Shown here in pieces: positions 429 through 43,109 of a DNA stretch of 64,000 nt. Location of the stretch: assembly GCF_001447155.2 (NCBI RefSeq), contig NZ_CP014754.1, positions 1,364,001 through 1,428,000 on the forward strand, given 5' to 3'. Made by a program: the position numbers and the translations under genes. The number at the start of each line of letters is the position of its first letter. Positions within the stretch are counted from its first letter, which is position 1. This DNA comes from Marinobacter sp. LQ44 (GTDB taxonomy: Bacteria > Pseudomonadota > Gammaproteobacteria > Pseudomonadales > Oleiphilaceae). Below the pieces are notes generated by a model. The model was not told the origin of the DNA and did not search any database. It saw only the letters and a list, made by a program, of their open reading frames with translations.

Positions 429-802
429 CGATTTTGGGTCTGACTCTTTGAGTTGGGTCCTATTTTTGGCCCAGCCCTCTTGGTGTGGTGGTGGGCGGCG
501 GCAAGGAACGTCTTTCGCACTTGTGGTGAGGGCTTATCGAAAACTCTTTCATGCAAGGCGCTGAAAGAAGGCCAAATTCAGTATTTCGGCGTACCGGAGA
601 CGGCATACGCCAAAGTTTGAAAGAGGAGATGGGGAACGTCTTTCGCGGAATTTCGAAGGCCATGGATGGCCTGAGAGAAGCGCACATGGATGTGCTCGTA
701 GCGGTTCCGCGAAAGACGTTCCCCATCTCCGACACAACCCATACAGGCGGTACCCGATAATGTTCCGGGACCGTAGAGAAAGGCTGACAGGAGAACACCC
801 AA
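429..802 (+). other. 374-base metK-ahcY spacer, rich in inverted repeats
   Basis: No credible gene is seen here. The stretch holds small hairpins at 561-581 (CTGAA/TTCAG) and 588-611 (GGCGTA/TACGCC), then the long inverted-repeat element at 625-730. A 14-base copy of the left arm of that element (GGAACGTCTTTCGC) also occurs alone at 505-518 and could pair with the right arm instead of the usual partner. The ahcY ribosome binding site (AGGAG near 789) follows. I looked for the known SAH riboswitch and did not recognise its conserved core. Confidence 0.55.
625..730 (+). repeat. Long inverted-repeat element 1 with two NGGA hairpin loops
   Basis: Arms of 26 bases (625-650 and 705-730) are perfect reverse complements. 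The 54-base loop carries two mini-hairpins: GGCCA-TGGA-TGGCC (657-670) and GCACA-TGGA-TGTGC (682-695). The GGA triplets are 21 bases apart. The same layout recurs at 9428, 33295, 37249 and 43001 with different arm sequences. In this copy the GGA-bearing strand is the same as that of metK and ahcY. The right arm is not followed by a T-run, so it is not a standard intrinsic terminator. Confidence 0.8.
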
Positions 803-2197
803 ATGAGCACTCCGGCAGAAAAACTGACCACGTTTGAAGACTACAAAGTCCGCGACATTACCCTCGCCGACTGGGGCCGCAAGGAAATCAAAATCGCCGA
901 AGGCGAAATGCCCGCCCTGATGAAACTGCGCGAGAAATACAAAGCCGAGCAGCCGCTGAAAGGCGCCAACATCATGGGCTGCATCCACATGACCATCCAG
1001 ACCGCCGTATTGATTGAAACCCTGGTGGAGCTAGGCGCTAACGTGCGCTGGTCATCGTGCAACATCTTCTCCACCCAGGACCAGGCCGCAGCCGCCATCG
1101 CGGCGCAAGGCATTCCCGTGTTCGCGTGGAAAGGTGAAACTGACGAAGAATACGAATGGTGCCTGCACCGCACCGTAGGTGCAGACGTGGACGGCTGGCA
1201 ACCGAACATGATCCTGGACGACGGCGGCGACCTGACCGAGTTGCTGCACAAGGAATACCCGCAGGTGATTGCCAAGTGCCACGGTGTGACCGAAGAAACC
1301 ACCACCGGCGTGCACCGTCTGCAGGAAATGCTGCGCGACGGCACTCTGAAGATCCCGGCGATCAACGTGAACGATTCGGTCACCAAATCCAAGAACGACA
1401 ACAAGTACGGCTGTCGTCACAGCCTGAACGACGCCATCAAGCGTGCTACCGACCACCTGCTGTCTGGCAAGAAAGCACTGGTCATCGGCTACGGTGACGT
1501 AGGTAAAGGCTCTGCCCTGTCCCTGCGCCAGGAAGGCATGATTGTAAAAGTGACCGAAGCCGACCCGATCTGCGCCATGCAGGCCTGCATGGACGGTTTT
1601 GAAGTGGTATCCCCGTACATCGATGGCATCAACACCGGTACCGAGCAAGGCATCAACACCGACCTGCTGGGCACCACTGACCTGCTGGTGACTACCACCG
1701 GTAACGTCAACGTGTGTGACGCCAACATGCTGAAGGCGCTGAAGAACGGCGCTGTGGTGTGCAACATCGGCCACTTCGATAATGAAATCGATACCGCCTA
1801 CATGCGCAAGAACTGGGAGTGGGACGAGGTCAAACCGCAGGTACACGTGATTTACCGCGACAAGGCCAGCAACGACCACCTGATCCTGCTGTCCGAAGGC
1901 CGCCTGGTGAACCTGGGCAACGCCACCGGTCACCCGTCCCGGATCATGGATGGCTCCTTCGCCAACCAGGTGCTGGCCCAGATGTACCTGTTCGAGCGCA
2001 AGTTTGCCGACCTGCCGGAGGAATCCAAGGCCAAGGGTGTTTACGTTCAGGTACTGCCCAAGCAACTGGACGAAGAAGTGGCCCGCGCCATGGTCGAAGG
2101 TTTTGGTGGCGTGATCACCAAGATGACGCCGGACCAGGCAAAATACATCGGTGTGCCGGTCGAAGGCCCGTACAAGCCGGAAAGCTACAGGTACTGA
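803..2197 (+). CDS. ahcY: Adenosylhomocysteinase
   Basis: Cytoplasmic S-adenosylhomocysteine hydrolase, 464 residues, which splits SAH to homocysteine and adenosine using bound NAD and so relieves product inhibition of methyltransferases. The NAD-binding loop [10 protein letters not shown] is at about 229-238, the substrate region around residues 55-62 ([10 protein letters not shown]) is intact, and the chain ends with the typical KPESYRY tail whose Lys and Tyr reach into the neighbouring subunit. The ATG is preceded by AGGAG about 10 bases upstream. metF begins 12 bases after the stop, so the pair is probably cotranscribed and recycles homocysteine towards methionine, with metK just upstream. 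Confidence 0.98.
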
Positions 2198-2209
2198 GCG
2201 GAAACGATC

Positions 2210-3079
2210 ATGGAATCCCAGAAGCAATTCAAGCGCCGTTTCAGCTTTGAGTTTTTCCCGCCCAAGACCGATCAGGGCAAGGAAAAGCTGCAGGCGGTGC
2301 GCAACCAGCTGGCGGAGGTGAACCCGGATTTCTTCTCGGTCACCTTCGGCGCCGGCGGCTCCACCCGGGACCGCACCATTGAAACAGTACTGAACCTGCA
2401 CAAGCAGGGCATTTCCACGGCACCGCACCTGTCGTGCGTGGGTGGTACCCGCGCAGAGATCGGCGAGCTGCTGGATCTGTACAAAGAAAACGGCATCAAC
2501 CGGATCGTGGCCCTGCGCGGCGACCTGCCCTCGGGTATGGGCGCTTCCGGTGAACTGCGTTACGCCAACGAACTGGTGGAGTTCATCCGGGAGCACAGCG
2601 GTGATCACTTCAACCTGGAAGTGGCCGCATACCCGGAGTTCCATCCCCAGGCCCGCAACGCCGAGGAAGACCTGAAGAACTTCGCACGAAAAGTACAGGC
2701 CGGTGCCAACAGCGCCATCACCCAGTACTTCTTCAACGCCGACAGCTACTTCTACTTCATCGACCGCCTGGAGCAGATGGGAGTCACCATTCCGGTGGTG
2801 CCGGGCATCATGCCGATCGTGAACTTCTCCAGCCTGGTGCGGTTCTCCGACATGTGCGGTGCGGAAATCCCGCGTTGGATCCGCAAGCAGCTGGAAGCCT
2901 ATGGCGACGACACCGACAGCATCCGCAAGTTCGGTGAAGACGTGGTCACCGAGATGTGTGAGAAGCTGCTGAAAGCCGGGGCGCCCGGGCTGCACTTCTA
3001 CACCCTGAACCAGGCTGAACCCAGTCTCTCCATCTGGAAGAATCTGGACATCAGCGACCGGGAGAAGATCGCTTTCTGA
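2210..3079 (+). CDS. metF: 5,10-methylenetetrahydrofolate reductase
   Basis: A 289-residue TIM-barrel flavoprotein that reduces methylene-THF to methyl-THF, the methyl donor for remethylation of homocysteine. The N-terminal FSFEFFPPKT motif (about 11-20) and the TFGAGGSTRDRT motif (about 44-55) are typical of MetF, and the length matches the bacterial family. It starts 12 bases after ahcY, with a weak ribosome site (GGAAA), which suggests translation coupled to ahcY. A strong intrinsic terminator follows at once, closing the methyl-cycle unit. Confidence 0.97.
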   Translation: MESQKQFKRRFSFEFFPPKTDQGKEKLQAVRNQLAEVNPDFFSVTFGAGGSTRDRTIETVLNLHKQGISTAPHLSCVGGTRAEIGELLDLYKENGINRIVALRGDLPSGMGASGELRYANELVEFIREHSGDHFNLEVAAYPEFHPQARNAEEDLKNFARKVQAGANSAITQYFFNADSYFYFIDRLEQMGVTIPVVPGIMPIVNFSSLVRFSDMCGAEIPRWIRKQLEAYGDDTDSIRKFGEDVVTEMCEKLLKAGAPGLHFYTLNQAEPSLSIWKNLDISDREKIAF

Positions 3080-3091
3080 TCTGCTCCCCGA

Positions 3092-3127
3092 AGCCCTCTG
3101 CCGGCCGGCAGAGGGCTTTCTCTTTCC
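3092..3127 (+). terminator. Intrinsic terminator after metF
   Basis: A perfect 13-bp palindromic stem (AGCCCTCTGCCGG / CCGGCAGAGGGCT, 3092-3117) is followed by the T-rich run TTTCTCTTT. It lies 13 bases after the metF stop. Confidence 0.85.
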
Positions 3128-3296
3128 CCTCCCCAGCGTTATAACCAACTGAATTTCTGCAAATCCTGCTTTTCTGGTCTAGGCTGTATCTGATGTATCC
3201 CCATCAACGCTCCTCGCAAGGCAAGCGTTAAAAGCGGTTACCTGTGCGAATTGCCTTACCGGGCAAATGGAGCATAAAAAACAGAAAGGAGATCAC

Positions 3297-4055
3297 ATGA
3301 GCACGAAATGGCTGAAAACACTGGGCGCTGGTCTGGCATTGTCGGTTGCAGCGTCAACCGTTAGTGCAGAAACCCTCCGAGTGGTGACCGACCCAAGTTT
3401 TGTCCCCTTTGAAATGATGGACCAGGAAACCGGCGAGATGATCGGTTTCGACATGGATATCATCTCTGAGGTGGCCGAGCGCGCGGGCTTTGAGTACAAC
3501 CTGCAGACCATGGATTTCAATGGCATTATCCCGGCCCTGCAAACCGGCAACGTGGATATCGCTATCGCCGGCATTACCATCACCGAAGAGCGCAAGCAGA
3601 TTGTCGATTTCTCTGACCCCTACTACGACTCCGGCCTGCGGATTCTGGTGCGGGCAAACAACAGTGATGTCGATGAGCTTTCTGATCTTGAGGGCAAAAA
3701 AGTTGGCACCAAGATCGGCAGCACCAGTTACGACTTCCTGATGCAAAACCTGGATAACAATGGCGGTGTCACGCCGTACCCGGGCAGCTCCGATATGTAT
3801 ATGGCACTGATGTCCCGAGCCATTGATGCGGTGTTCTACGATGCCCCGAACGTTGGCTACTTTGCCAGCACCCGTGGCGAAGGCCGGGTGAAAACCGTCG
3901 GCCAGCTTTATGAAGGCCAGCAGTACGGTATCGCCCTGAAAAAGGGCAGCCAATGGGTTGGCCCGGTCAACGAAGCACTTGCCTCTATTAAGGAAGACGG
4001 TACCTACAAGACCATTTATGAAAAATGGTTTGGCCCCATGCCTGAAGACAAGTAA
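3297..4055 (+). CDS. Periplasmic amino acid-binding protein of an ABC importer (GlnH/ArtJ type)
   Basis: A 252-residue family 3 solute-binding protein. Residues 1-23 form a Sec signal peptide (basic start, hydrophobic core, VSA cleavage box before ETLRVV). The mature part has the usual two-lobe marks: FVPFEMMD, GFDMDI, LQTGNVDIAIAGITIT, and FSDPYYDSG. The start at 3297 is chosen because AAGGAGATCAC sits right before it; an upstream ATG in frame at 3267 has no such site. Permease and ATPase genes follow on the same strand. The exact ligand (glutamine, arginine, other polar amino acid) cannot be told from the sequence alone. Confidence 0.93.
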   Translation: MSTKWLKTLGAGLALSVAASTVSAETLRVVTDPSFVPFEMMDQETGEMIGFDMDIISEVAERAGFEYNLQTMDFNGIIPALQTGNVDIAIAGITITEERKQIVDFSDPYYDSGLRILVRANNSDVDELSDLEGKKVGTKIGSTSYDFLMQNLDNNGGVTPYPGSSDMYMALMSRAIDAVFYDAPNVGYFASTRGEGRVKTVGQLYEGQQYGIALKKGSQWVGPVNEALASIKEDGTYKTIYEKWFGPMPEDK

Positions 4056-4126
4056 CCCGCCATCCGTTCTGGTCAGGGCGTACAACGCCCTGACCGGTTC
4101 CTCCCAACTCAACGGAGACTCACACT

Positions 4127-4798
4127 GTGGAATTCCAGTTTCAGTTTGACTGGCAGGCAGCAATCCATGCCATTCCATTTCTGGCCAAAGGCATCCCCTA
4201 CACTCTGATGATTTCCTTTGGCGGCCTGGCCATCGGCTTTGTGCTGGGCATCCTGTTCGGTTTGCTGAGCATCAACAAAAGCTGGTTCCTGCGCTGGCCC
4301 GCCATTGCCTACATCGAGATTTTTCGTGGCACGCCGATTCTGGTTCAGGTCCTGTTTATTTTCTACGGGCTGCCAGACCTGGTCGGTGGGCCCATCGACC
4401 CGCTCACCGCTGGCATTGCAGCCATCGCACTCAATTCCGGCGCTTATATTTCCGAAGTGGTGCGCGGTGGCGTGCAGTCCATCGACAAGGGCCAGACCGA
4501 AGCAGGCCTGTCGCTCGGGCTCTCCAGAACCCAGACCTTCTGGTCCATCATCTGGCCCCAGGCGTTCCGGCGCATGATTCCGCCACTGGGCAACCAGGGC
4601 ATTGTCAGCATCAAAGACACGTCCCTGTTTTCTGTCATCGGCGTAGGTGAACTGGTCCGTCAGGGGCAGGTGTACATTGCCAACACGTTTACCGCGTTTG
4701 AGGTGTATTTCGTGGTCGCACTCATGTACCTGGCCATCACCTTAACTCTGTCCCTGCTCCTGCGTTTGCTTGAGCGCCGTGGCGTAGCGTCTGTCTGA
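4127..4798 (+). CDS. Amino acid ABC transporter permease (GlnP type)
   Basis: Inner-membrane permease of 223 residues with about five hydrophobic helices. The EAA loop that docks the ATPase is seen as [16 protein letters not shown] near residues 124-139, and the preceding [11 protein letters not shown] motif is typical of the HisM/GlnP family. It starts with GTG at 4127 behind a GGAG site. The gene lies between the binding protein and the ATPase, 13 bases before the latter, and is a member of the same operon. Confidence 0.95.
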
Positions 4799-4811
4799 AG
4801 GAGCCCGAGTA

Positions 4812-5558
4812 ATGACTCAGATTGTGAAAATGAAGGGCATGAACAAGTACTTCGGCAAACTGCATGTCCTCAAGGATATTGACCTGACCGTCGAGCAGGG
4901 AGAAGTAGTGGTGATTATCGGTGCCAGCGGCTCCGGCAAGTCCACTTTGATCCGCTGTGTGAACGGCCTTGAAGAGTATGAATCCGGCGTCCTGGAAGTA
5001 GATAACCAGAAACTCGCGCCCAAAGGTGGCAACCAGCAGGCGTTGTCGGAAATACGCAAGGAAGTGGGCATGGTGTTCCAGCAGTTCAATCTGTTCCCTC
5101 ACCTGACGGTACGAAAGAACATCATGCTGGCCCCCATGAAAGTCAAAAAGGCGTCCCAGGTAGTGGCCAACGCCACCGCAGAGCGCTTGCTGGACAGAGT
5201 AGGCATCGGCAACCAGGCCGACAAATACCCCAGCCAGTTGTCGGGTGGCCAGCAGCAACGGGTAGCCATCGCCCGGGCCCTCGCCATGGAACCCCGATTG
5301 ATGCTGTTCGACGAACCTACCTCGGCGCTGGACCCGGAAATGATCGGGGAGGTGCTGGATGTCATGCGAGAGCTGGCCAAGGAGGGGATGACCATGATGG
5401 TGGTTACCCACGAGATGGGATTTGCCCGGGAAGTCGCAGACCGGGTGATCTACATTCATGAGGGCCAGATTGTCGAGGAAGGCAGGCCCGACGACGTCTT
5501 CGACAACCCCCAGAACGAGCGCACCCAGGCATTTCTTTCACGGGTGCTGGCGCACTGA
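4812..5558 (+). CDS. Amino acid ABC transporter ATPase (GlnQ type)
   Basis: Cytoplasmic ATPase of 248 residues that powers the importer. Walker A (GASGSGKST, about 38-46), Q-loop (MVFQQFNLF), signature (LSGGQQQR), Walker B ([13 protein letters not shown]) and the switch histidine (VVTHEMG) are all present. This is the last gene of the three-gene importer. A hairpin follows between it and the convergent SDR gene. Confidence 0.96.
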
Positions 5559-5580
5559 CCGCCTCGCACCCGGTTCGTTT

Positions 5581-5613
5581 GGCCTCGGTAGTTGTCTAAG
5601 GCTTACCGAGGCC
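5581..5613 (+). terminator. Hairpin between convergent glnQ-like and SDR genes
   Basis: A 10-bp perfect stem (GGCCTCGGTA / TACCGAGGCC) with a 13-base loop lies in the 60-base gap between two convergent genes. No clear T-run flanks it on either strand, so termination is a guess from position and stem strength. Confidence 0.5.
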
Positions 5614-5618
5614 TGCAG

Positions 5619-6407
5619 TCACGCTCTGGCCAGGCGGAACAGCAACTCCGGCGACAGCCGCTTAACCCAGAGCGCCGCCATTTCCTTGCCCTTACCCACC
5701 GGGATTTCGCGCTTCTTCGCTTGAAGCCCCTTGAAAATCACCTCGGCACATTCGTTTACGTCCATGCCACCGGCAATATCTGCATCTTCCTCACCAAAAG
5801 CAGAGCCATCGCCCGAAAGGGCATTGCGGGAAATATCCGTGCGAATAAAACCGGGTGTAATGGTAGACACCTGAACACCCTCACCCTCCACTTCCGCACG
5901 AAGGGCATCAAAAAAGCCCATCACCGCATGCTTGGCGGCGCAATATCCGGTTCTCATGGGGGCACCGACTTTGCCAGCCACACTGGAGGTGACCGCCAGG
6001 TGCCCGGCGCCACGCTCCAGCATATGGGGCAGCACCGCCTTGGTGAGTGCAATCTGGCCCATCACATCCACGTCCATCAGCTTCTGATAGACCGCCATAT
6101 CGGTATCTTTGCACAAGGAGCGTTGAGAGACGCCTGCGTTGTTGACCAGCAGATCGATAGTACCGAAGGCCTCCAGCACCGCCTGAACGGCACCGGGCAA
6201 AGAAGCCCAGTCAGTCACATCCAGCGGCAAGACCAGCACATGCCCCTCCTCCAGGCCGGCCTCAAGGCAGCGGCTTGCAACTCGCTCCAGTTCGCTTTTA
6301 CGGCGGGCAGATAACACAAGACGCGCGCCATGTTTCGCATATCGAAGGGCGAGCGCCTCGCCAATGCCGGAGGAGGCTCCGGTAATCCAGACAGTTTGTG
6401 CGGGCAT
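5619..6407 (-). CDS. Short-chain dehydrogenase/reductase
   Basis: A 262-residue classical SDR, an NAD(P)-dependent oxidoreductase. The cofactor motif TGASSGIG is at 9-16, the structural NNAG at about 89-92, and the catalytic set Ser141/142, Tyr155, Lys159 (YCAAK) is intact. Basic residues after the second strand (SARRK, 33-37) suggest a preference for NADP(H). The C-terminal part (PVGKGKEMAALWVKRLSPELLFRL) looks amphipathic and could touch the membrane, as in many lipid-acting SDRs, but the substrate is unknown. It is a single-gene unit upstream of the DUF2505 gene on the same strand. Confidence 0.9.
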   Translation of the reverse strand: MPAQTVWITGASSGIGEALALRYAKHGARLVLSARRKSELERVASRCLEAGLEEGHVLVLPLDVTDWASLPGAVQAVLEAFGTIDLLVNNAGVSQRSLCKDTDMAVYQKLMDVDVMGQIALTKAVLPHMLERGAGHLAVTSSVAGKVGAPMRTGYCAAKHAVMGFFDALRAEVEGEGVQVSTITPGFIRTDISRNALSGDGSAFGEEDADIAGGMDVNECAEVIFKGLQAKKREIPVGKGKEMAALWVKRLSPELLFRLARA

Positions 6408-6518
6408 AGTAATTCAGTCCTTCCGTTACCAGGCTCTTGTTTTGGAACGTTTAAACAAGAGACTACACCAGCAAATGAACACCCGCCATGACCATCACCG
6501 GGCGGCGGTTAGCAAACG

Positions 6519-7007
6519 TCACAACAACTGACGCGTAACCTCATACTCCCGTTCAATCTTTGCGTGAGAATCTTCTGCCAGAAACTTAGCCACCTTCTTG
6601 CCGAGGAAAGGCACATCGCAGTGAACAGACAGGTTCACGTAGTTGATGCAGCGATTACCATTGCCCAGCAAACGCATAATGCCCTTGATTCGAGCTGGCA
6701 CCCCATCAATCTTTACCCGGAACTCACAGTGCCACTCGCCATCGTCTTTCTTGAACCAGTGCTCTTCCTGGCGCACCCGGTTCCACTCCCGATGAAAGCT
6801 GGCCAGCATGCCGGGGACCGGGGCTGACGCCATCATTTCCCGCTCAATGACCAGCTTGGCCGCAGCATCGTCCCGTTGGAGCTCAGCTACACGAAGGTTC
6901 CGGGAACCAAGCTTCTGGTTCTTTTCAATAATGTGATGCTCACTGAAGAACCGTTCGATGATGTGATCCAGCCCTACCTCATAGGCATGCTCCAGAGTCA
7001 GCTCCAT
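6519..7007 (-). CDS. DUF2505 family protein
   Basis: A 162-residue protein that I assign to the DUF2505 family (START/polyketide-cyclase-like fold) from its overall pattern: a short N-terminal helix region (HAYEVGLDHIIERFF), a mid-chain HREWNRVRQEEHW stretch, and a C-terminal helix ending in a basic/acidic segment. No signal peptide or membrane helix is seen. The family has no firm function; a lipid-binding role is only an inference from the fold. It lies upstream of the SDR gene, separated by 111 bases, and diverges from bioA. Confidence 0.7.
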   Translation of the reverse strand: MELTLEHAYEVGLDHIIERFFSEHHIIEKNQKLGSRNLRVAELQRDDAAAKLVIEREMMASAPVPGMLASFHREWNRVRQEEHWFKKDDGEWHCEFRVKIDGVPARIKGIMRLLGNGNRCINYVNLSVHCDVPFLGKKVAKFLAEDSHAKIEREYEVTRQLL

Positions 7008-7221
7008 AATCGCCTCCTGTTATGTTGAATTCATTGTTGCTGCAGCCGGCCATCCTCACATTGGCCGCCCGAACGAGCGTTTCTGGCATGGAAGCCATCC
7101 GACTGGTTCACACGCCACCGCTGTTCTGGGTCACAACCGGGGCGCTGTTAACCGAGCGCTCCGGGAAGTATCATGGGCGGTCTCAAACAAAATGCCCCAG
7201 CCGGGAAGACAGGAGAACACG

Positions 7222-8571
7222 ATGCGTAATGCTGATCTGGTCGCACGGGACCTCAAATCCGTGTGGCACCCCTGCACCCAGATGAAAGACCACGAAAGCC
7301 TGCCGTTGATTCCCATCAAGCGCGGCGAAGGCGTGTGGTTGGAAGACTTCGAGAGCAACCGGTATATCGATGCGGTCAGTTCGTGGTGGGTGAACCTGTT
7401 CGGCCACGCCAACCCGCGGATCAACTCCGCTATCCAGGAACAGATTGGCCAGCTGGAACACGTGATTCTGGCCGGTTTTACCCATGAACCGGTGGTCAGC
7501 CTGTCTGAGCGCCTGATCGAAGTCACGCCCGAAGGGCTCAGCAAGTGCTTCTACGCGGATAACGGTTCATCCGCCATCGAAGCTGCCCTGAAGATGAGCT
7601 ACCACTACTGGAAAAACCTGGGCCAGCCCGGCAAGAAAAACTTCGTCAATCTCAGCAACAGCTACCACGGCGAAACCCTGGGTGCACTGGCGCTCGGTGA
7701 TGTGGCGCTCTATAAAGACACCTATCAGCCGCTGCTGATGGAGGTTCTTACCGCCCCATCCCCCGATGCCTACAACAAAGAACCGGGTGAAACCGACGAA
7801 GACTATGCCCTGCGCCAGTTCGAGGCCATGGAGAAACTGCTGGCCGAACGGCACGATGAAATCTGTGCTGTGGTGGTCGAGCCCCTGATCCAGTGCGCCG
7901 GCGGCATGCGCATGCACCATCCGATATACCACACCAAGCTCCGGGAAGCCTGCGACCGCTACAACGTGCACCTGATTGCCGACGAGATCGCCGTGGGCTT
8001 TGGTCGCACCGGCACCCTGTTCGCCTGTGAACAATCCGGCATTACCCCGGATTTCATGTGCCTGTCCAAGGGACTTACCGCCGGCTACCTGCCGTTGTCC
8101 GCCGTGCTGACCACCGAAACCGTGTACAACGCCTTTTACGACGACTACGAAACCTTGCGCGCCTTCCTGCACAGCCACAGCTACACCGGCAATCCCATCG
8201 GCTGCGCCGTCGCCCTGGCCACCCTGGACATCTTCCGGGACGAAAACGTCATCGAAAACAACCGCCAGCTGTCCCGCTGCATGGCTGAATCCGTCGCCCA
8301 CCTGGCCGACCACCCCAACGTCGGTGACATCCGCCAGCACGGCATGACCCTGGCCATCGAAATGGTTAAAGACAAAGCCAGTAAAACCCCGTTCCCCTGG
8401 CAGGAACGCCGGGGTCTGAAAGTCTACCAACACGCCCTCACCCGCCAGGCACTGCTACGGCCCCTGGGCAACGTGGTGTACTTCATGCCCCCGTATGTCA
8501 TCACCGAAGACCAGATACGCCACCTGGCACAGGTAGCGACCGAAGGCATCGGCATCGCGGTAAAAGGCTGA
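7222..8571 (+). CDS. bioA: Adenosylmethionine-8-amino-7-oxononanoate aminotransferase
   Basis: A 449-residue class III aminotransferase that uses SAM as amino donor to make 7,8-diaminopelargonate in biotin synthesis. The N-terminal VWHPCTQMKDH motif (about 14-24) is specific for BioA. The PLP-site aspartate lies in DEIAVGFGRTG (254-264) and the Schiff-base lysine is K283 in LSKGLTAGYLPLSAV. ATG 7222 is chosen because ACAGGAGAAC precedes it closely; an earlier in-frame start at 7192 lacks a ribosome site. rsmE follows after 9 bases, so the two are probably cotranscribed. Other bio genes are not in the window. Confidence 0.96.
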   Translation: MRNADLVARDLKSVWHPCTQMKDHESLPLIPIKRGEGVWLEDFESNRYIDAVSSWWVNLFGHANPRINSAIQEQIGQLEHVILAGFTHEPVVSLSERLIEVTPEGLSKCFYADNGSSAIEAALKMSYHYWKNLGQPGKKNFVNLSNSYHGETLGALALGDVALYKDTYQPLLMEVLTAPSPDAYNKEPGETDEDYALRQFEAMEKLLAERHDEICAVVVEPLIQCAGGMRMHHPIYHTKLREACDRYNVHLIADEIAVGFGRTGTLFACEQSGITPDFMCLSKGLTAGYLPLSAVLTTETVYNAFYDDYETLRAFLHSHSYTGNPIGCAVALATLDIFRDENVIENNRQLSRCMAESVAHLADHPNVGDIRQHGMTLAIEMVKDKASKTPFPWQERRGLKVYQHALTRQALLRPLGNVVYFMPPYVITEDQIRHLAQVATEGIGIAVKG

Positions 8572-8580
8572 GGGCAGCCC

Positions 8581-9315: not shown

Positions 9316-9427
9316 GGTTTGTGGCCCTGATTGGCAAACCTGCGGGCATCGCAGTCATTGACAGATCTGGCCCCGACCAACATTATCCTTGTCTGACAAA
9401 AAAGCCTGAAGCCATTGCCGATTTAGG

Positions 9428-9542
9428 GGCAGCGGGTTGCGGAGAGGCTTTCCAAAACCCTGCGGAGCCATGGATGGCGGAGCGGAGCGTACAAGGACGT
9501 ATTCACAGCGTGTTTTGGAAAGCCTCTCCGCAACCCGCTGCC
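9428..9542 (+). repeat. Long inverted-repeat element 2 with two NGGA hairpin loops
   Basis: Arms of 31 bases (9428-9458 and 9512-9542) are perfect reverse complements and include CTTTCCAAAAC at the inner edge. The 53-base loop holds GCCA-TGGA-TGGC (9467-9478) and TACA-AGGA-CGTA (9490-9501), GGA to GGA distance 20. The spacer between rsmE and the DUF445 gene (9316-9587) contains nothing else I recognise. The GGA strand is the same as that of both neighbours. Confidence 0.85.
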
Positions 9543-9587
9543 GGGCACCAAGGACCAGGTAAAAATAAATAGATTCGCGAGCCCAGG

Positions 9588-15103: not shown

Positions 15104-15197
15104 GACGTATGCCGGGGCAGGATTTTCTTGGGCAAACTGAATGTCTGAGCAAAGCGAGTTTCAGTTTGCCCAAGAAAATCCTGCCCCGGTGTACGTC
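15104..15197 (+). repeat. Long inverted-repeat element 3 (different loop type)
   Basis: Arms 15104-15140 and 15161-15197 pair over 37 positions with only two non-Watson-Crick positions, both of which become G-U in the plus-strand RNA (strand of tpm and prkA). The 20-base loop contains GAGCAAAGCGAG and no GGA hairpins, so this is not a copy of the family at 625, 9428, 33295, 37249 and 43001. No T-run follows. Confidence 0.8.
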
Positions 15198-32039: not shown

Positions 32040-32056
32040 GATCGCCCCCATTAAAC

Positions 32057-33294: not shown

Positions 33295-33407
33295 GAGCCA
33301 GTGGCGGTTGGCCTTCCAAAAAACGCTCCTTCGGCACTTCCTTGTGGCGCTTGGGCTCCGCCATCCATGGCTCCGCACATTTTTGGAAGGCCAACCGCCA
33401 CCGGCTC
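33295..33407 (-). repeat. Long inverted-repeat element 4 with two NGGA hairpin loops
   Basis: Arms of 27 bases (33295-33321, 33381-33407) pair with one exception, which is A-C on the plus strand but G-U in minus-strand RNA. Read on the minus strand the loop shows GCCA-TGGA-TGGC and CAC-AAGGAA-GTG, GGA to GGA distance 22. Minus is the strand of nosL, so the element would be in the 3' untranslated region of the nos operon, 70 bases after the nosL stop. It is also 43 bases after the moaA stop. Confidence 0.82.
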
Positions 33408-33476
33408 TTTCTGACTCTCGTTGGTTCGCTCCGAAACACCTTCTTTGTTTACCGAAACCTGATCACTCTCGGCATC

Positions 33477-34091: not shown

Positions 34092-34111
34092 GGTTCTGTT
34101 CTCCGGTGGTA

Positions 34112-35871: not shown

Positions 35872-37136
35872 CGGATCTCCGATTGCAGGTGTTCGGGAAT
35901 TCGCATCAACGGTTTGGGATCACTCACCCCGGCAGACTTCACCACCGGAAACGCATCCTGCACCCAACGCAGGGTATCCACCGCCGGGCTGAACATCAGC
36001 ACCCGGGCCTCCGGGTACTTCCACAACAGGCGGTCCACGTTGTCATTAGGCTCATACGGCACATCACCAATGCCATCCTGGTTACGATCCCAGCCCAGAT
36101 AATCACTCCAGAAATTCCCCCGCCCATCCTTCGCCCAGGACTGGGTACGAGTGGCCACATACTTCACCTGCCGCTCGTTGTTCACAAAGGCATTATCAAA
36201 CACCTCGTTTTGCTCAGAACCGGCGGTCAGGTGAATCCCGATATTGCTGTGACCGAAATAATTGCCCTCAAAGGTGTTGTACAGCGAGTTGTAGATGAAC
36301 ACCGCTTTACCCTCGCCCCCGGAAATCATCACCCCACCAGTTTGCCCCTGAGACACCCCGGTCACCACGTTGCCCTTGAGAGTAGAATTGGTGATGAAAT
36401 TCATCAGAATCCCGTAATTCTCATCATTCTCCGACCGGTTATTCACCACCGTCAGATACTTGCTCTGCATCAACGCGTACCCCGTGCGAGTGCCACGGGT
36501 CAGATTGCCTTCCAGCAGGTTGTGCATCGAATACATGTAGTGAATGCCGTAGCGCAGATCCGACATCACGTTATTGCGAATCTTGTTGTTATTCGCCGTC
36601 TCGATATAAATCGCATCCCGGGTCTGGCGGATGTCGTTGCCCTCAATCAACGCCCCGGTGGTATTGAACAGATGAATCCCATTCCCCCGGTCCTGAGAAC
36701 GAAGGCTGGCCTCCCCGCGTATCTCGTTATTCCGGACAACCACATCCGGCGTGGCGTCCAACCAAACCCCGAACGCCGGCCCCTGAAGCCGGTTATCCGC
36801 AACAACCGCCCCCTTCGCCTCCCGAGCCACAAAAATCCCCGCATCCAACTTATTCAGATCCTGCCCCCAGTTACGCACCACACAACCGGAAAACGACACC
36901 CCCTCCGCCAGAATCTCCACCGCATGCCCCGCCCCACCGGCATCAATCACCGAATCCTCAGCACAGGACACAGAAACGCCGGGCACCCGGATAACCAATG
37001 GCGGAAGCTGCTCGGGAGGAAGCTCGAACGACACCCCGGGCTCCAGGGCATCCAGCTGATCTTGCAGGTTGGCACTTGCGGTCAGCGAAATCAGAGCGAC
37101 TGACAGGGCCACCCCATAACGCAAAAGTTGATACAT
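35868..37136 (-). CDS. nosD: NosD periplasmic copper-site assembly protein
   Basis: A 422-residue periplasmic protein. A signal peptide (LLRYGVALSVALISLTASA) precedes a right-handed parallel beta-helix with repeated N-N-x-I/V turns (for example VVRNNEIRGEA, IEGNDIRQTRDAIYIE, NNKIRNNVMSDLRYGIHYMYS). It is a partner of NosFY in maturing NosZ. ATG 37136 is preferred; the codon just before it is TTG. Element 5 lies upstream, between nosD and nosZ. Confidence 0.95.
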   Translation of the reverse strand: MYQLLRYGVALSVALISLTASANLQDQLDALEPGVSFELPPEQLPPLVIRVPGVSVSCAEDSVIDAGGAGHAVEILAEGVSFSGCVVRNWGQDLNKLDAGIFVAREAKGAVVADNRLQGPAFGVWLDATPDVVVRNNEIRGEASLRSQDRGNGIHLFNTTGALIEGNDIRQTRDAIYIETANNNKIRNNVMSDLRYGIHYMYSMHNLLEGNLTRGTRTGYALMQSKYLTVVNNRSENDENYGILMNFITNSTLKGNVVTGVSQGQTGGVMISGGEGKAVFIYNSLYNTFEGNYFGHSNIGIHLTAGSEQNEVFDNAFVNNERQVKYVATRTQSWAKDGRGNFWSDYLGWDRNQDGIGDVPYEPNDNVDRLLWKYPEARVLMFSPAVDTLRWVQDAFPVVKSAGVSDPKPLMRIPEHLQSEIR

Positions 37137-37248
37137 CAAATGCTCTCTAGGTTGATAAGTAACCCGTGGACGTCGCGACCTGAGACAGAACCACGGGGAA
37201 ATTCATAGCGCCTTCGGCCGCCCCGAGGACAGCACGGTATCCGGCAAT

Positions 37249-37355
37249 CCAAGTGGAGAGACCTTTCCAAAACTGTGCGGAGCCAAGGATGGCGGAGCCC
37301 AAGCGTCACATGGATGTGCCGAAGGAGCGTGTTTTGGAAAGGTCTCTCCACTTGG
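37249..37355 (+). repeat. Long inverted-repeat element 5 with two NGGA hairpin loops
   Basis: Perfect 25-base arms (37249-37273, 37331-37355) with ACCTTTCCAAAAC at the inner edge. The loop holds GCCA-AGGA-TGGC and CACA-TGGA-TGTG, GGA to GGA distance 22. It lies 65 bases after the nosZ stop and 112 bases before nosD, inside the nos operon, but its GGA strand is plus, opposite to the operon; this is the only copy in antisense orientation. Confidence 0.82.
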
Positions 37356-37420
37356 GTTGCTACTCCCAACCAACAGGCTGGGGCCCCAAAAAAGGGACCC
37401 CGAACCAAGGTCAGAAGCTA

Positions 37421-39316
37421 TCAGGCCTTCTCGACCAACATGCGACCACCCATCTCCATATGCAGCGCATGGCAGAACCAGTTGCAGTAGTACCAGTAAA
37501 CCCCAGGCTTACCCGCCGTAAAGGTCACTGATGCCGTCTGCTGAGGACTGATCTCCATACTCACACCATGGTTCACCATACAGAACCCGTGAGTCACATC
37601 TTCAATGGAGTCCAGGTTGGTCACAACCACCGTAACCTCATCGCCCTCCTTCACCTTGAACTCCAGCAACCCGAACTGCGGCGCAACCGAAGTCATGTAA
37701 ACCCGAACCTTGTTGCCATCACGGATTACCTTGCTGTCAGACTCAAGATTCACCCCGTCCTTCTCTGCCATCGCACGAGTAGCGGCAAAGTAAGGATCAT
37801 TCCGTTCCCAGATCTTCTTGGTCCGGATCTGGTCACGGCGTACCAGGATACAATCGTGTGGCTCGGCGTACGCGGGGCCATCGTGAACCAGCTTCATCTC
37901 CTCGCCGGAAATATCGATCAATTGATCGTTCTCGGCGTGCAGCGGGCCTACCGGCAGGAAGCGGTCCTTGGAGAACTTCGACAACACCACCAGCCACTTG
38001 CCATCGGCATCGCGTGATTCGGTCAGCGACGCGTGGTTGTGGCCCGGCTGATAGTGAACGTCCAGCTTCTGGCGGATGTAGTTCACGTCTTCGCCATTGT
38101 AGTGCTTGATCGCATCCGCGATGTTCCACTTGGCCACCTGACTGTCGATAAACAGCGTGGTGTAGGCATTGCCACGGCCATCGAACGTGGTGTGCAGAGG
38201 CCCAAGACCCAGCTCCGGCTCCGCAACAATCGGATCGCGGTCACCGATCTTGTCATCAAACAGGTCATCGAGCTTGTCGATGGCAATGATGGACACTGTC
38301 GGAGACAGTTTGCCGTTGGCAATGAAGTACTTGCCATCCGGAGAAGTGTTCAGACCGTGCGGGTTCTTCGGCACCGGAATGTAACGGGTAACGGTGGAAC
38401 CCTTACGGCCGTCAACGACTGGCACGCCGGAATCACCGATGGTTTTGAAGTTACCGGCCTTGACGGCAGCTTCGATGCGCTCCACGTTGAACACCACCAC
38501 CCAGTCACGGTCGTTTCGCATGGTGCCGGCCAGGTCTACGGCTTTCTCGGAGTTGTAGCAGGTTGAGGCCGCATATTTACCGGTGTAGTCGGCGTCGGTG
38601 TTATCCAGGTTGCCGTCCACAATGACCTGCCAGGCGACCTCCATGGTTTCAGCGTCAACCGCAGTAAACATGGTGTAGCTGTTCTCAAGGCTGTAATCGC
38701 TGCCATCGTTCGGTTGTGGAATGACAAACTCGGCATTACAGAACACGTAGTTCGTGCGCGGCACCTTTTGGAGACGCAAACCGTGAATCGCCTGAACATT
38801 GGGGATGTGGGTCACCTTGTCGGTTTTGAACACATCCAGTCGAATACGGGCAATACGACTGTTGGCCTTGTCGTTAATGAACAGGTATTTGCCGTCGTAA
38901 CGGCCGTCTTCCATGGACACGTGCGGGTGGTGGCAATCGCCGTTTGGATACAGCTTGTCCCGGCCCAGAATGTCCTTGCTCTCGTCGGTGATGCCCCAGC
39001 CGGTGGCGGAATCAATGTTGAACACCGGAATCCGCATCAGCTCGCGCATGGACGGAACGCCCAGAACACGTACTTCACCCTGGTGACCACCGCTCCAGAA
39101 ACCGTAGTACTCATCCAGTTCGCCTGGCTCGATATGCACCTTGTTACGGGCTTCACGGCCAGCGGCGGCGAACGATTCGCGGGTCATCATGGTGGTACCC
39201 AGGCCGGTTGCACCAGCCACGCCGGCCAGGGCCGCGGCGCCCATAAAGCGGCGGCGGCTCAGACCACCTTCGGGAACCTCCGGTGCGTTCTGGCTCAGAT
39301 CATCTTTCTTGCTCAT
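37421..39316 (-). CDS. nosZ: Nitrous oxide reductase NosZ
   Basis: A 631-residue periplasmic copper enzyme reducing N2O to N2. The Tat signal [13 protein letters not shown] (about 20-32) marks it as a clade I, Tat-exported type. The CuA site near the C-terminus reads [12 protein letters not shown] with the upstream CMVNHGV ligand region; CuZ histidines are spread through the propeller (CHHPH, HGLRL, EPHDC). It lies 62 bases after nosR. Confidence 0.98.
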
Positions 39317-39378
39317 AGCGACAACTCCGTTATTGGTTATGGCGGTTTTAGCTTCTCATGGCTTTTTACAGGTACTGC

Positions 39379-41523
39379 TCAGTTCACCTGAACCACGGGG
39401 ATTTCCTCCGGGTGGCCCGGTGCGTTGTGACCACGGCGTTTGCCTCGGCGCTTGACGATCAGCGGTGGGCACTTGTGGTCATCGAAATAGGTCATCTGGC
39501 AATCCAGGCAGTAGTGGCACTCCATGTAATTGATGTGCCCATCCGGATGGATAGCCTGCACCTCACATTCGTGGTCGCAGAGGCGGCAGGGGTTGCCGCA
39601 CTCTTTGCGGCGCTTGAGCCAGTCGAACACCCGCAGCTTGGAAGGCAGAGCCAGGGCGGCTCCAAGCGGGCACAGATAGCGGCAGAAGACTTTACGGGTG
39701 AACAAATTGACCACCAGCAGCAACACCGCGTAGGCCACAAACGGCCAGGTACGATCGAATTTAAGGGTAATAGCGGTTTTGAATGGCTCCACTTCCGCCA
39801 TTCGCTCGGCGGTTGCCAGAGAATCCAGCGAGACGCCAAACAACACCAGCAGAATTATGTATTTGATTGCCCAGAGCCGTTCATGCACGGCAAACGGCAC
39901 GGTGTACTGGGGCACCTTCAGTTTGCGGGCAATTTCGTTGGTCAGTTCCTGCAGGGCGCCAAACGGGCACAGCCAGCCGCAGTAAACCGCACGCCCCCAG
40001 AGCAATACGATGCCGGCCACCACCGACCAGAGAATGAACAGCATGGGATCAATCAGGAAAGTTTCCCAGCGGAAGCCGCTGATCAGGCTGTTTACAAAGG
40101 TCAGCACGTTGACAATCGACAACTGCCCCAGGGCGTACCAGCCAATAAAGAACAGGGTGTAAGTGAGAAATGCGTGGCGAATCCAGCGCATCATCCGCGG
40201 CTTTTGCACCAACCAGTCCTGGAAGAACAGGATAAACAGCAGCACGCCAATACCCAGTCCCACCACGATGATCTGGAACTGCTTCTGATACCAGACCTGA
40301 ACCCACATGGGTTGCTCTTCCAACCACTCTTCCTGGGTCAGCTCGGGCTCTGCGCGGGTGTAATACTTGTCAGGCAACTGGTATTCCAGGGGGAACACCG
40401 CAAATTCACTGTCCAGGGGACCGGTCTGGCGTTTAACCGTAAGCTCCAGAGACCAGGGCTCGCCGGGGTCGAAGTTGTACTTCTGGCGAATGATGAAGAT
40501 GGCCATTTCCGGCAGGCGCGGCATATCACCGAGATACACATCACTCAGGCGGTAGTAGTCCAGGTCGCGGAAGTTAAAGGTATCGCCGAACTGCCGAACC
40601 TGCAGCCGGTCAAAAATGCCGCCGCGCACATAGCCTGAACCACGGAAAGAATAAGAGCCGTTAGCCAGCACCGCAATGGCATGTTCGCCGTCCTTTAGCT
40701 CAGACATCAGCCACTCGTACTGGCGATCACCCAACAGATTGCGGCCAATGGAAGGGGCATCCAGGTAAGCGGCGTACAAATCGATCAGGGGTTCGTCACG
40801 CTGATCCGGCGCGGCGGTTTCAAAACCTTCTGCCGGCCCACCGGCAAAGGCATCATCAACCTGGCCCCGGGTCAGCAGCATCCGGCGGATTGAGCCGTCA
40901 CCGGTTAATTCTGTCCAGGAACGTTGCCGGAAGCTGTCCTTGATCACTTCAGCCTTGGGTGGCCGTTTACCAACACCAACACCTTCGACCAGGCCCAGCT
41001 CACCGCCAACTCGATGCGCCGTGCGCATAATGACTTCATTGATGACCATGACCGTGACGGTGGCACCGGATAAACCATCGACTGCCACCCTACGTTCGGA
41101 CGATTTACCCCCAACGGTTACTCGCTGGTCAGCTTTCAGGCCGGCGTATTGGTCAGTGAACTCATGCATCTTGGCTTCGGGAATACCGATCAAGAGAATC
41201 GGTTCATCGTGATGGATCACCCGGGCGCCTTTGATCTCGCCTTCGGTATCCAGTACCACCATGGCATTCAAGGGCTTCCCGGAGTATGCCGGGGTTTGCA
41301 CGAAATCGAGGGTCTGGTAGGCATAGCCCACCAGTTCATCGCCAGCATAGAGTTGCTGGATGGCCCGGTTGTCTTCCCGGGGCTCATAGCGAGTGACCGA
41401 CGGAATGGCGACCTGAATCACCTGACGCCCGGCGACCGGTTCATACTCGCTCAATGAGGTAGCGTTGGCGGACGAGGCGAGAGCCATCAACGCGAGAAAT
41501 ACCAGACCTAATCCGTTAAACAC
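39379..41523 (-). CDS. nosR: NosR membrane flavoprotein/polyferredoxin
   Basis: A 714-residue inner-membrane protein needed for nosZ expression and electron supply. A signal-like N-terminus precedes a periplasmic FMN-binding domain (DGLSGATVTVMV near 150 is the covalent FMN site), then a set of membrane helices (about 415-640) and a cytoplasmic C-terminus with two 4Fe-4S sets (CGNPCRLCDHEC and CHYCLDCQMTYFDDHKC). Cys-Pro motifs CGWLCPFG and CRYLCPLG flank the membrane part. A DNR/FNR box lies 45-58 bases upstream. Confidence 0.96.
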   Translation of the reverse strand: MFNGLGLVFLALMALASSANATSLSEYEPVAGRQVIQVAIPSVTRYEPREDNRAIQQLYAGDELVGYAYQTLDFVQTPAYSGKPLNAMVVLDTEGEIKGARVIHHDEPILLIGIPEAKMHEFTDQYAGLKADQRVTVGGKSSERRVAVDGLSGATVTVMVINEVIMRTAHRVGGELGLVEGVGVGKRPPKAEVIKDSFRQRSWTELTGDGSIRRMLLTRGQVDDAFAGGPAEGFETAAPDQRDEPLIDLYAAYLDAPSIGRNLLGDRQYEWLMSELKDGEHAIAVLANGSYSFRGSGYVRGGIFDRLQVRQFGDTFNFRDLDYYRLSDVYLGDMPRLPEMAIFIIRQKYNFDPGEPWSLELTVKRQTGPLDSEFAVFPLEYQLPDKYYTRAEPELTQEEWLEEQPMWVQVWYQKQFQIIVVGLGIGVLLFILFFQDWLVQKPRMMRWIRHAFLTYTLFFIGWYALGQLSIVNVLTFVNSLISGFRWETFLIDPMLFILWSVVAGIVLLWGRAVYCGWLCPFGALQELTNEIARKLKVPQYTVPFAVHERLWAIKYIILLVLFGVSLDSLATAERMAEVEPFKTAITLKFDRTWPFVAYAVLLLVVNLFTRKVFCRYLCPLGAALALPSKLRVFDWLKRRKECGNPCRLCDHECEVQAIHPDGHINYMECHYCLDCQMTYFDDHKCPPLIVKRRGKRRGHNAPGHPEEIPVVQVN

Positions 41524-41567
41524 TCAAACCCCCAATCCTGATGGAATACAACAAGGGTGGATGACAA

Positions 41568-41581
41568 TTGATAAAAATCAC
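41568..41581 (-). promoter_or_regulatory. DNR/FNR-type box upstream of nosR
   Basis: TTGAT-AAAA-ATCAC (plus strand) differs in one base from the consensus TTGAT-N4-ATCAA. It is centred 51 bases before the nosR start, right for activation at about -41.5. The dnr-type regulator gene is 0.5 kb upstream. Confidence 0.7.
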
Positions 41582-41622
41582 ATACCTCTTTTTGGATACG
41601 CCAAAGGCGTAACCGGCGAAGC

Positions 41623-42024
41623 TCAGACCAGGCTCACGGCCTGACCGGCTTTATCGAGGGGCAGGTAATTGCCGACGTTACCCACACGGATGCTTTCAAC
41701 CATCATGGTCATGGGTTGCTGGGCTTCATCACTGGAGGGTTCTATGCCGCCACGGCCAGACATGGCCGCCACGAAAACCATATCCCAGTCCTGGCCAGTG
41801 GTTCGGGACTCTTCAGCCAACACAGTGAAGTCTGGCGCTTCCCCAGGGGTTTTATCCACGCAGATTACCGGGGTCAGCGCCCCACCCTCACCACGTTGGA
41901 AGGCGGCCCGCTCGGCGGCGGATGCATCATCCGGCAGCTCGGCTTTGCAGAACACAAACAGGAATCGCTGGGGCTCATGTTCGTTCTGGCTGGCCTTAAC
42001 AAGGTCCTGGTAACTGCTGATCAT
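41623..42024 (-). CDS. Conserved hypothetical protein between dnr and nosR
   Basis: A 133-residue soluble protein. It opens with MISSYQDLVKASQNEHEPQRFLFVFCKAEL and has an FCKAELPDDASAAERAAF block, a single buried-looking VICVDKTP segment and a C-terminal VESIRVGNVGNYLPLDKAG. Related short proteins in other denitrifiers are often mislabelled as a ribonucleotide reductase subunit; I see no reductase motif. Its location between dnr and nosR in the same direction suggests a role in N2O or NO respiration, but this is inference. A DNR/FNR-like box lies 62-75 bases before its start. Confidence 0.72.
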   Translation of the reverse strand: MISSYQDLVKASQNEHEPQRFLFVFCKAELPDDASAAERAAFQRGEGGALTPVICVDKTPGEAPDFTVLAEESRTTGQDWDMVFVAAMSGRGGIEPSSDEAQQPMTMMVESIRVGNVGNYLPLDKAGQAVSLV

Positions 42025-42078
42025 ATAAATGCCCCTGACTTGGCGAAGATTGAAAAAAGGGCCCGGAGGACCCGAAAA

Positions 42079-42828
42079 CTACTGACTGATTTCGATCAGT
42101 CGTTGAGGGTCGGAAATAAACAGTCTGCTACGATTCACCCGGACCAGGCCGTTGGACTTGAGGTCGGCCAGAATTCGGGAGAAGGTTTCCGGCTGCATAG
42201 CGAGGCGCGAGGCCACCAGGCATTTGGGCAGGGGCAGTTCAACTTCGCCCCCTTCCAGGGCGCCATTAGGCAGCAGGTCAATCAGGTAGCGGATCAGGCG
42301 GTCACGGGCGTTCTGGACGGTCATGATTTCCAGGTCGTGGAACCGTGTGACGGCGCGCATGGCGTAATGGCGAAGCGCGGCCTGGGCGTACTCCGGGTGC
42401 CGGTCGAGCAGGTCCTGATAGGCTTTGACCGGGATCATCAGCACTTCGCTGGATTTGAGTGCTTCGGCGTAGCAGGCGTACCTTGGCGGATCGGCGTAGA
42501 TCATGACTTCGGCGAAGCAGTCGCCGGGGGCGATGCTGTCGAGGGTTCTGTCGATGCCGGAGGAGTCCAGGCGGTAGAGTCTGAGGCGGCCGCTGATCAC
42601 AAAGAAGAAGTGGTGCGCTGGCATGTCCTGGCGGTAGAGCAGCTGGTGGTGGCCGAGACGCAGGCGCCGGGACTGCTGGATGAGGTAGTCCAGGTCGTGG
42701 GCTTTGAGGCTGCGGAACAGGGCGTGGCTGCGTAGTGCTTCCAGGCCGTCTTCTTCATCAAGCGGTTTGTTGATGGCGACGAGTACGGGTTTGGTGTATC
42801 GGCTTTCGGCGCTTTGGGTGACGGCCAT
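42079..42828 (-). CDS. dnr: CRP/FNR family regulator, DNR type
   Basis: A 249-residue regulator with an N-terminal cyclic-nucleotide-binding-like domain (GDCFAEVMIYADPPRYA) and a C-terminal helix-turn-helix (ASRLAMQPETFSRILADLKSNGLV). It lacks the N-terminal cysteine cluster of FNR, as expected for DNR, which senses NO through haem and activates nir, nor and nos genes. The start at 42828 follows GAGGATACTCC. A DNR/FNR-like box is upstream at 42943. The gene order dnr - hypothetical - nosRZDFYL suggests local control. Confidence 0.88.
   Translation of the reverse strand: MAVTQSAESRYTKPVLVAINKPLDEEDGLEALRSHALFRSLKAHDLDYLIQQSRRLRLGHHQLLYRQDMPAHHFFFVISGRLRLYRLDSSGIDRTLDSIAPGDCFAEVMIYADPPRYACYAEALKSSEVLMIPVKAYQDLLDRHPEYAQAALRHYAMRAVTRFHDLEIMTVQNARDRLIRYLIDLLPNGALEGGEVELPLPKCLVASRLAMQPETFSRILADLKSNGLVRVNRSRLFISDPQRLIEISQ
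42086..42099 (-). promoter_or_regulatory. Possible DNR/FNR box inside the dnr 3' end
   Basis: CTGAT-TTCG-ATCAG is a perfect dyad near the FNR consensus. It falls within the last codons of dnr and 62-75 bases before the next start, so it could drive the hypothetical gene at 41623, or be a coding coincidence. Confidence 0.4.
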
Positions 42829-42942
42829 TGGAGTATCCTCTCTGCATATTAATGCATTCAATATCTTGTTTTAAATAGTAGAGGGATAGTGGTGAAAAAT
42901 CGCTCCCCCGATGGGGGTATAAGGCGGGTTCTTGTTGAGTAG

Positions 42943-42956
42943 TTGACTTAACTCAA
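42943..42956 (-). promoter_or_regulatory. DNR/FNR-type box upstream of dnr
   Basis: TTGAC-TTAA-CTCAA, a perfect dyad with the same outer bases as the site at 52312, lies 115-128 bases before the dnr start. The surrounding 307-base gap (42829-43135) also holds a GC hairpin (TCCCCC-GA-TGGGGG, 42904-42917) and element 6, and no gene. Confidence 0.55.
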
Positions 42957-43000
42957 TTATTCGCTTTGCTAACCAAACTGGAAATCAGATCATGGAGTTT

Positions 43001-43109
43001 GGCCAGCAGTTGTAGACCCTTCCAAAACACGCTGTGAATACATCCCTGTACGCTCTGCTCCGCCATCCCTGGCTCCGCAAGGTTTTGGAAGGGTCTACAA
43101 CTGCCGGCC
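43001..43109 (-). repeat. Long inverted-repeat element 6 with two NGGA hairpin loops
   Basis: Arms of 28 bases (43001-43028, 43082-43109) pair fully except for one A-C that becomes G-U in minus-strand RNA. Read on the minus strand the loop has GCCA-GGGA-TGGC and TACA-GGGA-TGTA, GGA to GGA distance 20; the second site with its flanks, GUACAGGGAUGU, matches the CsrA SELEX consensus RUACARGGAUGU at every position. It begins 26 bases after the ppiC stop on the same strand. Confidence 0.85.

Follow-up and report, generated by a model that had tools for sequence, protein, structure and literature searches.

The CsrB/RsmB and RsmZ RNAs are few and gene-like, each carrying many CsrA sites. Repetitive extragenic palindromic (REP) sequences are conserved as sequence, and the attC sites of integrons combine a conserved structure with a variable stem sequence and are active as a folded single strand. 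Closer to the elements considered here is the TwoAYGGAY RNA family (Rfam RF01731), which has two adjacent hairpins with AYGGAY-type loops within an outer stem. TwoAYGGAY is listed, with gamma-Proteobacteria among its taxa, in a passage of PMC2864571, while a section of PMC4333381 (2014) reports that it strongly matches a CsrA-site motif and puts forward sequestration of CsrA as a role of such RNAs. An excerpt of PMC7652899 gives the consensus obtained for such sites by systematic evolution of ligands by exponential enrichment (SELEX) as RUACARGGAUGU, with loops of mostly six nt and with AC and GU paired. Here we describe five elements of this kind in a 64,000-nt stretch of the Marinobacter sp. 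LQ44 genome (contig NZ_CP014754.1, positions 1,364,001 to 1,428,000; referred to as the window), which have many relatives elsewhere in this genome. The explanation that we put forward, tentatively but as a serious possibility, is that they represent a dispersed high-copy form of TwoAYGGAY, a putative RNA module that would bind a CsrA dimer and has its stem rewritten at the DNA level.

The five elements are located at window positions 625–730, 9428–9542, 33295–33407, 37244–37360 and 43001–43109 (elements 1 to 5), with the GGA-bearing strand being the plus strand for elements 1, 2 and 4 and the minus strand for elements 3 and 5. A preliminary description of the window had already reported them at these positions, and only the fourth turned out to extend further than the 37249–37355 given there. 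Their arms (625–650 with 705–730, 9428–9458 with 9512–9542, 33295–33322 with 33380–33407, 37244–37273 with 37331–37360, and 43001–43028 with 43082–43109) measure 26, 31, 28, 30 and 28 nt and are 96–100% complementary. Each element contains two mini-hairpins with AnGGA loops, whose GGA triplets stand at 664–666 and 688–690, 9472–9474 and 9495–9497, 33364–33366 and 33339–33341, 37287–37289 and 37312–37314, and 43066–43068 and 43043–43045. The corresponding G-to-G distances are 24, 23, 25, 25 and 23 nt, that is, 20–22 bases between the GGAs in all five, as in the preliminary description; elements 3 and 4 have an extra AnGGA 12 nt further on. RNA folds of the GGA strand yielded z-scores of –6.3 to –9.3, with none of 200 shuffles folding equally stably. 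A covariance model (R1), made from 48 copies from the LQ44 genome that include three of the five window elements by locus, scored elements 1 to 5 at 98.4, 107.5, 100.4, 98.4 and 99.4 bits, and a search of the window with R1 at E below 0.01 returned the same five places (two of them also on the opposite strand) and no sixth element. These data confirm that the five window elements are real, as first observed.

Both loops of all five elements read AnGGA, and the arms of 26–31 nt form the outer stem typical of TwoAYGGAY, to which the RF01731 model aligns. With this model, element 1 obtained 43.4 bits over 618–737 against a cut-off of 43, elements 2, 3 and 4 remained under the cut-off with 37.9, 29.1 and 33.1 bits, and element 5 was not among the matches listed at E 1 or better (150 of 218 candidates scored). 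A fast Rfam scan of the window at gathering thresholds gave no matches, and the 43.4 bits of element 1 in the permissive scan indicate that the fast filters had missed this element. Within the LQ44 genome, the same candidates included at least 48 matches at E 1 or better, one of which exceeded the cut-off. The LQ44 copies differ from TwoAYGGAY in that most score under the cut-off (47 of 48 among the matches listed) and in that their loops begin and end with a wider choice of bases than AY and Y, strict AYGGAY holding for only part of the copies. Of the 274 genomes in the class sample, 23 matched RF01731 at E 0.01 and 13 exceeded its cut-off; no match was found in 14 control genomes. Moreover, E. 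coli CsrB and RF01731 belong to the same Rfam clan (CL00106). Judging from these alignments and scores, the LQ44 elements belong to, or sit near, the little-studied TwoAYGGAY family. Because RF01731 and the proposal that it binds CsrA (in the cited section of PMC4333381) were already in print, the design is not new, contrary to the preliminary description, which knew of no family of this kind. In the open-licence literature we found no description of the high copy number, arm behaviour or paired layout of such elements; papers on Alcanivorax and Alteromonas dealt with other small RNAs, and no passage on the genera queried was found in PMC2267715. Apparently undescribed, therefore, are the high copy number, the private and near-pure Watson–Crick arms with mirrored substitutions, the divergent close pairs and the bias of G–T over A–C pairs. 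Matches of the long stems to microRNA families were discarded, as all were below their own cut-offs and several occurred on both strands.

With at most one mismatch, the pattern GGAGCCANGGATGGC was found at 54 places in the 4.44-Mb LQ44 genome, versus 3 for the reversed pattern. Thirty of these loci, and 20 stretches spanning 23 more, were examined (G000:C1:4425275 was left out), and pattern places and Rfam matches together yielded 60 copies with clear arms, after leaving out L043, L044, L045 and L049, where elements were absent, and one of the paired L025 copies, its arms being too degenerate. None of the 60 copies was inside a called gene (genes being called with a codon score trained on 33 long open reading frames of the window), and the copies were dispersed over the chromosome. 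This scatter does not bear out the link to denitrification and methyl-cycle genes that the preliminary description had suggested. R1 matched 60 of the 61 genomes in the genus sample at E 0.01 or better, and the counts per genome are lower bounds, with at least 66 matches in 20 of the 61 (66 candidates scored per genome). At least 50 of the 274 genomes of the class sample, in 45 of 222 genera, matched R1 as well (14 candidates scored per genome), and our own finder recovered two AnGGA hairpins inside a long stem in 24 of 29 class loci from other genomes. Among the matches listed, the loci drawn by the GGA pattern (L151–L270) came from Marinobacter in all 80 cases with a title given (of 120). 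Viral contigs contained no exact match to the pattern, and viral carriage was set aside.

The loops and their spacing are strongly conserved. In 149 copies from other genomes, the first loop base was A in both loops of every copy, although the finder did not require this base; all four letters occur at N, and the final loop base is mostly T or C. The G-to-G spacing was 23, 24 or 25 nt in 235 of 236 copies, in a set whose loop and Watson–Crick totals are conditional since its finder demanded AnGGA and mostly paired arms. Two analyses relax this condition, namely the 149-copy set, which frees the loop, and a set of hairpins gathered by their arms alone. The latter (exact arms of at least 16, spacer 40–80) comprised 51 inverted repeats in five contiguous stretches from five genomes, versus none in one mononucleotide-shuffled copy of each stretch, and 47 of the 51 carried two AnGGA loops, one a single loop and three none. 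Hairpin 2 fits the SELEX site closely, and its tip tolerates G–U at two pairs (15 and 8 of 48 copies). The SELEX consensus named in the preliminary description agrees with the excerpt of PMC7652899, and its paired CsrA/RsmA sites can be upheld as a prediction, given AnGGA kept with a free N, the SELEX-like hairpin 2, the tight spacing and the clan shared with CsrB. Loss of the GGA loops or random spacing, the outcome named there as refuting, did not occur. The LQ44 genome has one csrA gene (PF02599 match at G000:C1:681349–681504), and 46 of the 50 class genomes with elements were CsrA-positive. By our own count of good-quality class genomes, CsrA was present in 39 of 40 with elements (the exception being G256) versus 173 of 196 without, a co-occurrence that lends weak support to the CsrA reading.

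Over the 60 LQ44 copies, the outer arm positions hold little information. Arm columns 7–24 of 48 aligned copies (864 cells) nonetheless contained no G–U pair and three mismatches, even though 17 of these 18 columns varied between two or more pair types. For arm positions 1–22 of the 236 copies, we counted 5075 Watson–Crick, 68 G–T, 17 A–C and 32 other pairs, of 5192. G–T outnumbered A–C by 44 to 6 at positions 19–22, and by 18 to 3 at positions 12–24 of copies that are antisense to both neighbours, so this excess is independent of the direction of the flanking genes. It points to the GGA strand as the strand that folds. Changes between close relatives were mostly mirrored in the two arms: 18 orthologous slot pairs (those of 40 same-orientation pairs with arms at least 80% alike, the comparisons sharing genomes) revealed 34 mirrored changes (19 transversions, 15 transitions), 19 single-sided changes (7 giving G–U) and 2 others. 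In a clade at the rsmE locus (8 loci, 11 comparisons at least 75% alike, again sharing genomes), 33 mirrored changes (22 transversions) stood against 8 single ones, all 8 giving G–U. Mirrored transversions in such numbers could hardly have arisen by way of G–U steps, and they suggest templated copying from arm to arm at the DNA level.

Neighbouring copies less than 200 bp apart were divergent in 25 of 25 cases, with their GGA strands outward, although these pairs include orthologues across genomes and are not all independent. At 200–1000 bp, 5 pairs were divergent and 2 tandem, and beyond 1 kb the arrangement was mixed. No common motif was seen by inspection in the spacers between paired elements; those of L262, L268 and L233 hold a REP-like palindrome, GTAGGTCGGATTAGCGAAGCGTAATCCGAC or close variants. 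A transposase between paired copies was considered and rejected, as the one gene-spaced pair translated encodes, in both genomes, a protein of ~200 residues that is probably a DUF1415 protein and does not resemble a transposase (no family search was made).

Comparison of LQ44 with G018 (93.2% over 281,539 aligned bases) revealed an element at the orthologous slot for 14 of 15 mappable copies, and the fifteenth slot held a hairpin with one mutated loop. Over all genome pairs (81–93% identity), orientation was the same at 40 of the 45 slot pairs counted, all with one element per slot. Divergence was greater in intergenic regions where both genomes carry an element, with a median of 9.3% substitutions (13 regions) and a median gap share of 17%, versus 2.9% (104 regions) and 0 for those without, third codon positions diverging by 14.3%. 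Some slots are near-identical including the arms and others have largely different arms, while at one slot three genomes have the same outer arms and left flank but differ in core type. In addition, L104 (G003, ~2235–2534) is a chimera with its left arm from one element and its right arm from another, the exchange lying within the core. Elements can also be missing: by eye, ten rsmE loci were empty (L083, L084, L087, L088, L092, L096, L097, L103, L106 and L110), L102 had an altered loop stem, L085 was cut off, and L105 and L108 were not judgeable. In three comparisons of filled and empty sites (L082/L083, L109/L103 and a G018/G000 slot), the empty site retains part of the right arm, and we read these three as deletions, the alternative being an insertion that copies its target. 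The other empty sites showed no visible arm remnant, and a pre-existing palindrome that might have been an insertion target was not seen by eye in the empty sites of the rsmE locus.

According to Pfam, element 1 lies between metK (C-terminal part; end at 428) and ahcY (start at 803), element 2 between rsmE and a DUF445 gene, element 3 between a moaA-like gene and nosL, which are convergent, element 4 between nosZ and nosD, and element 5 between a PpiC gene and a Crp-type regulator gene. Four of the five are sense to the gene with which the preliminary description had associated them (metK, which ends 196 bases off, rsmE, nosL and ppiC), and the copy it placed at 37249 is antisense to both nosZ and nosD. 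Its view of the elements as 3′ untranslated region (3′UTR) modules of sense genes does not hold as a rule. With the upstream and downstream gene coded relative to the GGA strand, the 60 LQ44 copies divide into 22 (+,+), 15 (+,–), 12 (–,–), 10 (–,+) and one undefined, and 148 intergenic copies from other genomes (one of 149 was in a called gene) into 40, 40, 36, 24 and 8, respectively. Co-directional copies are hence sense rather than antisense by 22 to 12 in LQ44 and by a near-random 40 to 36 in the wider sample. Of the earlier interpretation, then, the paired CsrA-type sites survive as a prediction, while the 3′UTR rule and the metabolic link are not supported and the design was already described. 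At the rsmE locus, element 2 has the same orientation, sense to rsmE, in 15 of 15 copies detected (strict finder, 30 of 61 loci), and there the element separates a stretch that looks promoter-like by eye (TTGACA-N17-CATTAT) from the start codon of the following gene.

No sigma-70 promoter signal belonging to the elements themselves was found, with no enrichment upstream of 231 copies (mean signal 5.68, versus 5.75 in shuffled sequence). On the GGA strand of these copies, the 60 bases past the stem are A-rich and T-poor in a strand-specific manner (A 0.29–0.35, T 0.14–0.21), and the mean longest T-run is 2.2 in the 60 bases after the stem versus 3.0 before it, unlike an intrinsic terminator. 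The A-rich stretch contains the words CTCCAAA/CACCAAA and AGGCTAGG, and a degenerate CTCCAAA/CACCAAA motif was recovered on both flanks (log-likelihood 109 and 129, versus 47–55 in shuffles). A count by eye for replication-strand bias, with an assumed origin, gave 14 copies in plus and 16 in minus orientation below 2.2 Mb and 15 of each above, and is not relied on.

Some variants and other hairpins were encountered alongside these elements. Two expanded copies in LQ44, at G000:C1 ~1357258 (tile A 167257) and ~1320950 (tile A 330950), have a long insert in hairpin 2 in one case and an additional GGA hairpin within the core in the other. In G032 (tile C 98471–98525), both GGA hairpins are lost and perfect arms kept, apparently through deletion between short GCG repeats. 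Window positions 43967–44056 form an imperfect inverted repeat with ACGGAC-type units (arms 29 nt, 86%), with a weak R1 match at 43971–44052 (E 0.13). Another family of hairpins, represented at window positions 15104–15197, conserves its loop (TGTCTGAGC..GCGAGTT), whereas its G-rich, self-complementary arms are private to each copy; 7 distinct copies occur in the DNA examined, with 153 of 175 arm cells being Watson–Crick. Variable perfect arms are thus not peculiar to the GGA elements.

We infer the following mode of action. If the GGA strand is transcribed, the long stem would zip and present two ANGGAY hexaloop hairpins 20–22 bases apart, a layout that would suit one CsrA dimer. CsrA might then be titrated by the copies jointly, and one situated in a leader or trailer could in addition hold CsrA on its transcript. 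The loops and the junction are conserved, while the stem would need only to be a stem. Its sequence changes quickly but remains self-complementary, for which the simplest explanation would be that changes are copied from arm to arm by hairpin-templated DNA synthesis. Several GGA hairpins holding CsrA are likewise described for CsrB/RsmB and RsmZ in the excerpt of PMC7652899, CsrB being in the same clan as RF01731. Unlike these sponge RNAs, the elements are many short units with two sites each and no promoter signal upstream of 231 copies. The RsmZ model gave no LQ44 match above its cut-off, and its weak matches are uninformative because they also occurred in 8 of 14 control genomes. Several observations weigh against this proposed CsrA-binding module. 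Orientation to genes is near random, no sigma-70 signal precedes the elements, and many orthologous loci lack them. The association with CsrA is weak, and G256, which has elements and is CsrA-negative, is 98% complete. Some first hairpins are long, and the excerpt of PMC7652899 notes that very stable hairpins may disfavour CsrA binding. Finally, positions 1–11 of the 236 copies have no G–T excess (6 to 7), 12 of the single-sided changes do not give G–U, and folding of single-stranded DNA predicts the same G–T excess as RNA.

This last point also fits a possible, though rather improbable, alternative in which the elements are non-autonomous mobile DNA, akin to miniature inverted-repeat transposable elements or REP sequences, with a folded single DNA strand rather than RNA being recognised by some enzyme, the GGA loops serving as its recognition features and the likeness to CsrA sites being coincidental. 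The abundance of copies across 60 of the 61 genus genomes, near-random orientation, divergent close pairs (25 of 25), high turnover, empty sites and chimera would all fit such DNA. Like REP sequences and the bacterial interspersed mosaic elements built from them, they are dispersed, intergenic, hairpin-forming and sometimes paired; they differ in that each copy has an outer stem of its own and it is the tip, rather than the stem, that is conserved. The attC sites differ as well, since here single intergenic copies with conserved AnGGA loops are found. Arms are usually constant in mobile elements of this type but variable here, slots and orientation are kept over 81–93% identity (40 of 45 slot pairs), and no transposase was present in the one gene-spaced pair read. 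Moreover, AnGGA with a free N closely resembles CsrA sites, and members from outside the genus score in the RNA family.

The elements might instead be local cis-regulators only, each copy being a CsrA site within the leader or trailer of one transcript, without collective titration. The apparent leader position and constant orientation of element 2 (15 of 15 copies detected), the four of five window copies that are sense to a neighbour and the 22 to 12 sense bias in LQ44 speak for this, but we consider this explanation unlikely: the wider sample stands at 40 to 36, element 4 runs antisense to each of its neighbours, and some ten of the 30 orthologous rsmE loci hold no element. We consider it very unlikely that the elements are transcription-end or mRNA-stability hairpins of which the stem alone is important. 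Although the stems are very stable and 40 of 148 copies in the wider sample lie between convergent genes (with no null compared), the 60 bases after the stem are T-poor, unlike an intrinsic terminator, 24 of the 148 copies lie between divergent genes, and it is the loops rather than the stem sequence that are conserved.

Returning to the putative CsrA-binding module, a broader picture can be drawn, which we regard as speculative and rather doubtful: CsrA-capturing repeats across Gammaproteobacteria might pass on no fixed stem sequence but rewrite the stem in every copy, exchanging cores between copies, after which one arm templates the other, so that a genome would keep tens or more of private, near-perfect clamps, with close copies back-to-back only, as a self-mending system on the border of regulatory RNA and mobile DNA. 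Mirrored stem changes between close relatives make hairpin repair at the DNA level measurable, and the ratio of mirrored to single-sided changes, together with the share of transversions, distinguishes templated copying from stepwise compensation. Should the elements bind CsrA, a distributed CsrA sink would exist in Marinobacter and many other Gammaproteobacteria, beside or replacing a few sponge RNA genes, and this would alter the view of CsrA dosage in those bacteria.

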